Source: an uncultured Kangiellaceae bacterium (GTDB lineage: Bacteria > Pseudomonadota > Gammaproteobacteria > Enterobacterales > Kangiellaceae). From it: DNA of 64,000 nt. A model generated the notes under the pieces. It ran no database searches, had not been told where the DNA came from, and saw only the letters and a program-made list of their open reading frames with translations. The DNA lies in the NCBI GenBank assembly GCA_905479925.1, contig CAJQOL010000013.1:1-64000 (forward strand), written 5' to 3'. The position numbers were made by a program, and so were the translations under genes. The stretch's first letter is position 1. Each line of letters starts with the position of its first letter. Below, one piece after another: positions 13,456-16,998 of the stretch.

Positions 13456-13653
13456 GCAATCGCAATTGAAAAACTAGCAGGCAAAAGAAAGGGCGATAAA
13501 TCGCCCATATCCGTTTTTTTCATCCAATGAAAAAGTTGCTCCCTGCAATATCCCTATTAATCAAATCCTTGATATGAGATTTCCTATCTCGTCAGTCCTT
13601 TTAATCCAGCGATTTCCCTACCGCGTGATAGACAGATTACCGATGTTAAAAAA

Positions 13654-13668
13654 TCATACAAGTAGGGT
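13654..13668 (+). repeat. direct repeat copy 1, TCATACAAGTAGGGT
   Basis: Identical to bases 13944-13958, 290 bp downstream. The downstream copy forms the right arm of the inverted repeat at the integrase promoter, so this one may be a distant second binding site. Confidence 0.75.
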
Positions 13669-13905: not shown

Positions 13906-13934
13906 TTGACAAACACTACTTGTACGAGTACTAT
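13906..13934 (+). promoter_or_regulatory. strong sigma-70 promoter of the integrase-like gene
   Basis: TTGACA at 13906-13911, a 17-base spacer and TACTAT at 13929-13934. The -35 is a perfect consensus and the spacing is optimal. Transcription would begin near 13941, about 26 bases before the ATG. Confidence 0.8.
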
Positions 13935-13955
13935 CAATACTACTCATACAAGTAG
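13916..13955. promoter_or_regulatory. inverted repeat overlapping the promoter (operator or recombinase site)
   Basis: CTACTTGTACGAGTA (13916-13930) and TACTCATACAAGTAG (13941-13955) are inverted copies with 14 of 15 positions matching, separated by ten bases. The left arm covers the promoter spacer and the first two bases of the -10. The right arm lies at the transcript start, next to the ribosome site. The position suits a repressor operator; the size also suits a tyrosine-recombinase core site. Confidence 0.75.
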
Positions 13956-13966
13956 GGTGAAGATAA

Positions 13967-14890
13967 ATGCTTAAACTTTCGTCACTGTTGAAACAATCGA
14001 CTAATCAAATTCATACGGCTCAAATCTGCGAAAGATTAGAGAAGTATTGCGATAGTAATCAATTTTCATCAGCGAAGACTAAGCAAGTGATCAATTGGTC
14101 GCTACGCTTAATTCGATTCCATAATCAGCAACACCCTGCCGATTTAAGCCAAGGTGATATAGAAACGTTTATTACCTGGTTAGCCGCTGAGGAGAGCCAT
14201 TCCAAAGAAACCCAACATCAAGCCGCGAAGTCCATCCAAATTCTTTATTATGGTTTGCTAAACATCGACCTGAACCCACTGAATTATCAATCAGTGAGAA
14301 TTCGAAGATCATTAGAGACTCGTTTTGGATTTACCCAATGCCGCGCTATTTTAGACAACATGCGAGGAGAAAGCCTTTTGATGGCGGAATTAGCTTTCTA
14401 TGCAAAGTTAAGATTAAAAGAGGTGGTTCAGTTAAAACTAACGGACATCAATCTCAAGAAGAATAGAATTACTATTAAACATAAGACGGGGATAACAGAA
14501 AAGATAACCATTCCTTTAAAGTTAAATTTATCTCTGAGAATACAAGCAATGAGAGTAAAACAGCAGATTTTAAAGAGCGCTTTAGCGAAGCAATTTTTGT
14601 TTCCATATCGACATAGCAATAATAACCTTGTTGAGCTAAATACCGATCAATTACAGCTATTAAAAAACGATATACAAATTGCGATTAAACAATTTAAACG
14701 TCTTTCGCCACTTAATACAGCTCATTCTTATATACAAAACCGTAAATTATCCAATAGCCATAAATATATCAATGACTACGCTAGATTGAAAAATAATTAC
14801 AAGAAAGCTAATCAAACAAGTGACCAACAAACCGCGTTTAATTTTAAGACAAAACCATCAGTTTTTACTTTTGATAGCAATGTCGCTTAG
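13967..14890 (+). CDS. IntI/Xer-like tyrosine recombinase homologue without the C-terminal catalytic box
   Basis: The 307 residues begin with a SAM-like N-terminal domain (about 10-95), then a catalytic-domain start typical of integron-type integrases. KLRLKEVVQLKLTDI carries the first catalytic Arg, and HKTG carries the beta-hairpin Lys. The family then needs H-x-x-R, His/Trp and Tyr. The C-terminal part here (LNTAHSYIQNRKL onward) has no such motif, and no other frame supplies it. So the length is normal, but the protein should not recombine DNA by the usual chemistry. It could be a DNA-binding relic or a repurposed protein. The gene has a strong promoter, and the helicase gene starts 30 bp downstream. 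Confidence 0.65.
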   Translation: MLKLSSLLKQSTNQIHTAQICERLEKYCDSNQFSSAKTKQVINWSLRLIRFHNQQHPADLSQGDIETFITWLAAEESHSKETQHQAAKSIQILYYGLLNIDLNPLNYQSVRIRRSLETRFGFTQCRAILDNMRGESLLMAELAFYAKLRLKEVVQLKLTDINLKKNRITIKHKTGITEKITIPLKLNLSLRIQAMRVKQQILKSALAKQFLFPYRHSNNNLVELNTDQLQLLKNDIQIAIKQFKRLSPLNTAHSYIQNRKLSNSHKYINDYARLKNNYKKANQTSDQQTAFNFKTKPSVFTFDSNVA

Positions 14891-14920
14891 TTATTTTTGG
14901 CCAAGAGTCTATTTTTAATT

Positions 14921-16998
14921 ATGCAAACAATCGTTCTAAATCGCGAACAACAAGAAGCCGTATGTTATGGTAAAAAATGTATAAAAAACGGATTTGAAAG
15001 CCCTCCTCTTTTAATTATTGCAGGAGCGGGAACTGGAAAACTAATACTTTGGCAAATAGGGCGGCTCATCTGATTGTTAAAGATGTCGATCCTAATCGTA
15101 TACTTTTAATGACTTTTTCTAGACGCGCTGCTGGTGAATTAGCCGATAGAACAAAACGCATTGTTGCTGCCGAGCTAAAGGCTATCGGAAGTAAAACTAG
15201 GTCAGTCAATCTCCCTTGGATGGGTACCTTTCACTCTATAGCTAACAGATTACTTAGAGAACACTCCTCGATAATCGGTCTTTCATCGAGTTTTTCTATC
15301 ATTGACAACAGTGATGCTGCGGACATGTTAGACGTATTAAGGCACGAGTTAAACCTTTGTCAGTCACAAAAGCGTTTTCCAAAGAAAACAACCTGCCTTA
15401 ACATCTATTCCCGTTGTGTTAACTCTCAAATGGATATAGCAAAAATTCTTGAGTTAGAGTTTCCTTGGTGTGAAGACTGGGAACACGAGCTTAGACAGCT
15501 ATTTCGTTTGTATAGCAAAAGAAAACAAGAACAAGTTCTATTAGATTACGATGACCTGTTACTTTATTGGTACTACATGGTTCAAGACAAAGAGTATGCA
15601 AAACGAATTAGCCAGCAGTTTGATCATGTTCTTGTTGACGAATATCAAGATACTAATAGGTTGCAAGCCGCTATTCTTAGTTGCTTATTTCCTTCGGGTA
15701 GAGGACTAACCGTCGTGGGCGACGATGCGCAATCAATTTACCGCTTTAGAAGCGCTGAAATTGAAAATATTCTTAATTTTCCACAACAGTTTAAACCCGC
15801 AGCAAAGGTGATAACGCTCAAAACTAATTATCGCTCAACTCAGCCAATTCTTAACTTGTCTAATACACTATTAGCGCAGAGTAACGTTGGCTATCAAAAA
15901 GAGCTGGTTAGTTACGCTAGTTCAAACCCCTATACTATGAAAAGAAAACCTGCCTTAGTTAAAGTAGAGGACGACGCTGGGCAAGCCAAATATATTGTAG
16001 AGAAAGTTTTAGAAAATAGAGAAATGGGGTTGGCTTTAAAACAAAACGCGGTACTTTTTAGAAGTAGTTATCATAGCGATAGACTAGAGATAGAACTAAT
16101 GCGCGCAGATATCCCTTATATAAAATACGGAGGGCTTAAATTTCTTGAAGCTGCCCATGTTAAAGATTTACTGTCGATCATCCGCTGGGTTAATAACCCT
16201 AAACATTTGCTTTCAGGTAATCGAGTACTAAGATTACTTCCAAATGTAGGTCCAAAACTGGCGAAAAAAGCACTGGATTTTTTGCATAATAATCAATTCC
16301 AACTTGAGGCGCTTTCAAGGTTTCTAACCCCCAATAACGTTTCTGATGGGTGGGAACAGTTAATAAAATTTATAAACGCTTGCCAATCTGATAATTCTAA
16401 TTGGCCGGCTCAAATGGATTTAGCACAGCTTTTTTATAATCCGCTTTTGGAGCTGAAATACGATGACTCATATACTAGAAACGGTGATATTGAGCACCTT
16501 TCAAAACTTGCTCAGCAGTTCTCAAACGTAGAAGAGTTTGTTTCTGAACTAACTTTGGAACCACCATCATGCTCCGGTGATCTTACCGATAAAGCACATA
16601 AAGACGATGATTTCTTAATACTATCAACCGTTCATAGTGCAAAGGGCCAAGAATGGGATAGTGTATTCATCTTAAATGTTGCAGATGGCAATTTCCCAAA
16701 CGAGTACTCCACCTCTAACGAGAAAGAAGTGGAGGAAGAAAGACGATTACTCAATGTTGCTATTACTCGAGCGAAGACTGGCTTGCATTTAATTCAACCT
16801 CTCAAGTATTGGGTGCCTGAACAGGCTAAATATGGGAAAAAACACGTATATGGTGCAAAAAGTCGCTTTTTGACACCTTCGGTATTAAATCAACTTGAAG
16901 ACGACTTCTATCCCAAGAGTACCAATATGGCTGCCGAGCCAATGATAGACGGCATAACTATCAGTAACATACAGAGTAAAATACGCGAGCAGTGGTAA
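14921..16998 (+). pseudogene. UvrD/Rep-family ATP-dependent helicase, frameshifted in Walker A
   Basis: Superfamily 1 helicase. ATG 14921 opens MQTIVLNREQQEAV (Q-motif) and reaches AGAGTGK, then goes out of frame at 15040/15041 and stops 11 codons later. Inserting one A there restores GKTNTLANRAAHLIV and continues to 16998. Everything downstream is intact: VDEYQDT (motif II), VGDDAQSIYRFR (III), TNYRST (IV), STVHSAKGQEWD (V) and NVAITRAK (VI). The restored length would be about 692 residues. The lesion falls in four A (15037-15040), where a -1 ribosomal slip would also produce GKT. It could therefore be a recent mutation, a sequence error or a leaky frameshift. It follows the integrase-like gene by 30 bp. 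Confidence 0.8.

Follow-up and report, generated by a model that had tools for sequence, protein, structure and literature searches.

Inactive integron integrases are common. Such inactive IntI proteins have been found to correlate with a loss of LexA control, which was read as a way of living with an unregulated integrase (PMC3108266). Loss of activity within the recombinase fold is also reported for MrpR, described as having lost its recombinase function and turned into a repressor (PMC10516654). In the SOS response, ImuB is described as an inactive polymerase that was retained as an adaptor (PMC11791113). The literature searched contained no report of a dead integron integrase retained for another role. 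The gene described here, which lies within a window of 64,000 nucleotides (the whole stretch of DNA that was analysed), is best read, and rather probably so, as coding for a domesticated, non-cutting integrase that would serve the SOS response as a DNA-binding accessory. It would thereby provide an example, open to direct testing, of how an enzyme from a mobile element became part of the response to DNA damage.

The features of the locus are collected in Table 1. The product of the first gene is composed of an N-terminal SAM-like DNA-binding domain (PF13495, E 2.9e-13), a remnant of the recombinase catalytic domain (PF00589, matched in part, E 5.5e-8) and a disordered tail. Its best curated relative is the integron integrase model TIGR02249, which matches residues 24-200 with 86 bits and whose cut-off of 265 bits is thereby missed. 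The catalytic domain ends before the HxxR box, this box and the Tyr nucleophile are both absent, and the alignment places R, T, Q, K, Q and A where live integron integrases have R, K, H, R, H and Y. In the AlphaFold2 model obtained from the nine-row alignment (mean pLDDT 72.7, pTM 0.47), a core spanning approximately residues 14-250 is fairly confident while the tail, residues 251-307, is disordered. The top Foldseek match of this model is 2a3v, the Vibrio cholerae integron integrase bound to attC (E 1.1e-10), and the matches also include MrpR, YopR and SroF, which are regulators with a recombinase fold. As the TM-scores of these structural matches do not exceed 0.41, the orientation of the domains is not reliable. 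The integrase-like protein devoid of H-x-x-R and Tyr that the first-pass annotation had recognised, with the DNA-binding architecture of recombinases maintained, is thus borne out by the sequence and the alignment for the former part, and by the PF13495 and 2a3v matches for the latter.

Table 1. Features of the locus and their positions in the window.
Feature	Position	Strand	Remarks
Sigma-70-type promoter	13906..13934	+	-35 TTGACA 13906-13911, 17-nt spacer, -10 TACTAT 13929-13934; read directly
Putative SOS (LexA-type) box 1, ACTACTTGTACGAGTACT	13915..13932	+	Overlaps the -10 element; 17.9 bits, rank 2 in 64 kb
Putative SOS (LexA-type) box 2, ACTACTCATACAAGTAGG	13939..13956	+	After the -10 element; 23.0 bits, rank 1 in 64 kb
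Dead gene of the integron-integrase family	13967..14890	+	307 aa; profile matches, AlphaFold2, Foldseek, tree, catalytic residues
Tail motif Q-x-x-[FY]-x-[FL], QTAFNF	14828..14845	+	Codons 288-293; resembles a beta-clamp-binding motif
UvrD/PcrA-type helicase gene, frameshifted in Walker A	14921..16998	+	Start ATG 14921
Downstream helicase ORF, as listed in the first-pass annotation	15049..16998	+	649 aa, TTG start; all helicase motifs but Walker A

Compared with the integron integrases (TIGR02249; 2a3v), the dead protein shares the N-terminal SAM-like domain, the overall fold and the presence of a LexA-type box at its gene, but it differs in having neither the catalytic R/K/H/R/H/Y residues nor the C-terminal part from the HxxR box onwards, in its new disordered tail, in its housekeeping neighbours, and in the lack of a conserved IntI insertion. 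This last element (LPxAL..KYP-type, located before the W-x-x-[VLI]-F-P strand) is the part by which integron integrases read folded attC hairpins, as in 2a3v. Its motif is found in none of the nine dead proteins and is readable in most of the live ones, and the corresponding segment of the window's protein is far shorter than in live IntI. Since the insertion is not conserved, binding of DNA structures by the dead protein is not assured.

Eight further genomes of the family carry homologues of the dead integrase, which makes nine proteins from two genera in all, distributed between the genus of the window (with G002, G004 and G005) and a second one (G007, G014, G017, G023 and G041). Measured across the full alignment, the homologues are 26-40% identical to the window's own protein, and the reading frame is open in all nine genomes. 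In a tree built from these nine proteins and 33 live integron integrases, the dead proteins form a single clade with a support of 100/100 and a long stem. The full R, K, H, R, H, Y set is present in 32 of the 33 live relatives, the remaining one being cut short before H3/Y, and is complete in none of the dead proteins, where the first R alone persists, in two cases. This loss, common to the nine homologues, implies that the window's integrase is not simply one decayed copy, and decay of a single copy was rejected on that ground. The non-cutting recombinase relative proposed in the first-pass annotation is accordingly conserved as such across the clade, and no close homologue with an intact catalytic C-terminus was found among its members. 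Besides, a search through 395 genomes of the order revealed no dead-type integrase outside the family: the next matches reach at most 172 bits, against 293-446 bits for the dead clade, and those that were read possess both HxxR and Tyr. The plasmid search returned generic IntI matches alone, with less than 60% identity and none spanning 80% of the query. Selection was judged from conservation, the diverged sequences being saturated at synonymous sites. On balance, it appears that catalysis was lost once, in the ancestor of the two related genera, and that the protein persisted in a DNA-binding role induced by damage.

The promoter of the gene carries two palindromes that are the two highest-scoring sites of the 64 kb, the third reaching 10.0 bits only, according to a matrix built solely from lexA, recA, imuA and dinB sites; the controlled promoter noticed at first pass is real. 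All nine dead-integrase genes are preceded by a motif close to CTACT-N6-AGTAG, the best-scoring site of each homologous locus being located 28-157 bases ahead of the chosen start, and TTGACA followed by this same palindromic motif recurs upstream of most of them. In these same genomes, the motif is also found upstream of imuA-imuB (L099, L101 and L109), of dinB (L100) and of recA (L108, and L124 in the window's own genome), and the lexA gene of this genome (L139) has a degenerate form of it, CTATTTGTACGGGTAG. Because the same motif occurs at recA, lexA, imuA and dinB, the palindromes are read as a general SOS box, and their interpretation as a private operator of the dead integrase was rejected. 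At recA (loci L222-L249), a box of the CTACT-N6-AGTAG type was detected in all five promoters tested of the window's genus and in some of those of the sister genus, a third genus (g4) has a variant, ACTAGT...GAGTAGT, and genus g5 has no clear box of either type. The classic sequence CTGT-N8-ACAG, which most beta- and gammaproteobacteria use as their LexA box (PMC3323433, PMC3108266), was found in none of the 24 recA promoters tested. These genomes thus very likely have CTACT-N6-AGTAG as their LexA box, divergent from CTGT-N8-ACAG, and LexA would bind it at the dead-integrase genes as well, as the sharing of the motif suggests. The literature searched contained no report on the LexA of Kangiella. 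Among the recA loci, that of G005 (G005:C12:18387-19347) appears as two overlapping matches, so that its assembly may be damaged or contain indel errors.

Judged from the sequences, a clade-wide absence of catalysis combined with a strictly kept SOS box is the opposite of the pattern reported in the literature. The loss of catalysis in the whole clade while the SOS box was kept indicates a new function rather than decay. Among the options listed in the first-pass annotation, repair fares best on the basis of the SOS promoter.

A possible way of action comes from the tail. The pattern Q-x-x-[FY]-x-[FL], picked after inspection, occurs in seven of the nine dead-protein tails against 0.6 expected from shuffled tails, those of G007 and G041 being the two that do not match. 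It departs from the canonical clamp-binding consensus, QLxLF or the hexapeptide QLxLxL (PMC4564189), by the presence of F or Y in place of leucines. The tail nonetheless recalls a clamp-binding motif, and a role at the clamp may be proposed for it. The dead integrase would in this respect resemble ImuB, its closest functional analogy and a model for how it may work: like ImuB, it would be a dead enzyme that is retained within the SOS regulon and carries a motif for clamp binding, although ImuB, a catalytically dead Y-family polymerase, has an unrelated fold and the clamp interaction of the dead integrase is a motif resemblance only. In addition, seven of the nine dead proteins end with AA or VA. 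Such -AA/-VA C-termini are typical of ClpXP substrates and recall ClpXP degrons; both features of the tail are to be taken as leads.

According to the model that can be drawn from these elements, DNA damage would lead to cleavage of LexA and to expression of the operon. The dead protein would then bind single-stranded or branched DNA through its SAM-like core and the remnant of its catalytic domain, DNA intermediates being bound at stalled forks, while the Q-x-x-F-x-F tail on the sliding clamp would hold it at the replication fork. A helicase would thereby be aided or recruited at the fork, namely the operon partner or, where this partner has been lost, the housekeeping UvrD, and the -AA/-VA end would permit later removal by ClpXP. 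That an integron integrase turned into an SOS-induced, clamp-tethered DNA-binding adaptor serving an SOS-specific UvrD paralogue, and hence a gene-capture enzyme into a DNA-repair factor, is put forward as a tentative proposal, itself less probable than not.

It could also be considered that the dead integrase is a transcriptional repressor of the MrpR type, regulating its own or other SOS promoters. MrpR is indeed a precedent of a recombinase turned repressor (PMC10516654), the recombinase-fold repressors MrpR/YopR and SroF are among the structural matches, and a recombinase fold without catalytic residues is common to the dead integrase and the MrpR type. More generally, MrpR/YopR from phage SPbeta and SroF from phi3T share with it the tyrosine-recombinase fold, the lost recombinase activity and the reuse for DNA binding. 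However, these are phage-encoded repressors that are not known as SOS-controlled together with a helicase, and MrpR retains its whole C-terminal domain, including the Tyr, whereas this domain is gone in the dead integrase. Moreover, the promoter palindromes are accounted for as SOS boxes, also present at lexA, recA, imuA and dinB, and no separate conserved operator was seen, the general SOS box being the sole one. Repression is therefore unlikely to be the function of the protein.

Another explanation would be that the dead integrase, as a dominant-negative inhibitor, interferes with live integron integrases or with Xer recombination, the SOS response inducing it alongside the live enzyme. In this line, the fold is shared with live IntI, and live IntI genes of the genomes studied have the same SOS box (G007:C23, G007:C1 and G004:C220). 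Nevertheless, G000, G002, G014 and G023 all have the dead protein and no other IntI homologue, and the attC-reading insertion specific to IntI is not conserved, so that such an inhibition is quite unlikely. As to the state of the live genes, G007 still has intact ones, and its relatives G004 and G017 have broken live-type copies that retain the SOS box (L122 2275-3099 in G004, L126 3069-3784 in G017).

The second gene of the locus begins 30 bases after the stop codon of the first, a distance that the first-pass annotation had given correctly. The window's helicase has the Pfam UvrD-helicase and UvrD_C domains in common with UvrD, PcrA and Rep, from which it differs by its pairing with the dead integrase and by scores that are far under the equivalog cut-offs (at least 911 bits): taken on the downstream ORF, which lacks Walker A, these scores are 309 for PcrA, the nearest curated model, and 288, 287 and 245 bits for the others, against cut-offs of 911, 965, 1144 and 951 bits. 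The upstream frame reads LLIIAGAGTGK, which corresponds to Walker A, is lost in the A run at 15037-15040 and stops at 15071-15073. No such shift occurs in the homologues L004, L005 and L010, and Walker A is intact in the relatives. A programmed frameshift was judged unlikely by inspection, as the relatives read through and the slippage geometry is poor. The window's helicase is thus either broken, possibly reflecting a further loss under way, or contains a sequence or assembly error. While the UvrD type assigned at first pass holds, the ORF as then listed does not, the gene starting upstream of it and being frameshifted. In G007, the helicase (L031 9811-9946) has no in-frame ATG, GTG or TTG at the homologous position past the dead-integrase stop.

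Among the 40 genomes of the family that were searched, the helicase occurs in four (the window's, G004, G007 and G017), always directly after the dead integrase, and these four helicases are monophyletic (SH-aLRT 97). Five of the nine genomes with a dead integrase have no helicase, including G014 and G023, whose genomes are at least 99% complete, and the helicase was probably lost several times. The linkage that had been suggested between the two genes therefore holds wherever the helicase is present in the family, but is not obligatory. Because five of nine genomes lack the helicase and the window's copy is broken, its partnership with the dead integrase cannot be essential, and for the same reasons the helicase looks dispensable, whereas the integrase-like protein does not. 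In the sample of the order, the only other case, in G167, stands alone and its locus carries CTGTACAGATATACAG. Elsewhere, the subfamily is widespread and solitary in the loci read. A LexA box matched to the clade was found at many of these loci, GTTC-N7-GTTC or its complement in 10 of 14 from alphaproteobacteria and CTGT-N8-ACAG in four of eight from beta- and gammaproteobacteria, with at most 0.01 expected per locus and none in both swapped controls. It is thus probable that the helicase, which belongs to a separate subfamily, is itself a UvrD paralogue under SOS regulation, and the boxes suggest that this widespread paralogue is a likely SOS gene across several groups of proteobacteria.

The chromosomal environment helps to weigh the idea, raised at first pass, of a decaying mobile element, in which a pseudogene-like integrase remnant would stand beside a helicase fragment. 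In the window, G004 and G005, the dead integrase lies between priA and glnS/LysE, and in G002 it is on the LysE/glnS side, where the contig starts. In G014, G017 and G023, it is found in the MBL/YbaN/tsaA neighbourhood, tsaA not being seen adjoining in G023, and in G007 and G041 it adjoins tsaA. The neighbours are housekeeping genes, and two fixed chromosomal loci, one per genus, look like vertical inheritance and not mobility. The frameshift of the window's helicase, the longer branch of this helicase, about twice that of G004 (0.49 vs 0.22), and the broken live IntI genes in the relatives G004, G005 and G017 would fit with decay. However, the dead-integrase ORF remains open in nine of nine genomes at 26-40% identity, with one pattern of loss and with the SOS promoter and the tail conserved, and inactive IntI elsewhere correlate with the loss of LexA control (PMC3108266), the opposite of what is observed here. 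As an account of the locus, decay is very improbable: for the integrase it is already largely refuted, the fixed syntenic position and the conserved promoter and tail speaking against it, and for the window's helicase it still stands.

Finally, an anti-phage defence unit made of a helicase and a DNA-binding subunit, also among the options of the first-pass annotation, is hardly probable, since the matches of the helicase to the PADLOC GajB and RTasHel models amount to generic UvrD similarity, neither GajA nor a reverse transcriptase could be recognised as a neighbouring partner (for GajA, at the four paired loci, with neighbouring ORFs read by eye), the loci are fixed in a housekeeping context, and in other genomes the helicase mostly stands alone, often behind an SOS box.

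Some minor observations were made besides. Genes for REP-associated-type transposases (MTRARESIIDLEST...) in G007 and G017 (L116, L120 and L130) have the same SOS-type box directly upstream, which suggests their damage-induced expression. Half of SOS box 2, together with the bases that follow it, recurs exactly as a 15-bp sequence (TCATACAAGTAGGGT) at 13654-13668 of the window, 290 bp upstream. The Rfam scan of the window gave no match at the gathering threshold; below it, PrrB_RsmZ (RF00166) matches the minus strand at 13483-13591, between priA and the dead integrase, with an E-value of 1.2e-5 and a score of 31.8 bits, the gathering score being 44. With its many GGA motifs and a terminator hairpin, this element is likely a small RNA of the CsrB/RsmZ type. 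Its conservation extends to G004, and G002 has two copies of it in tandem.
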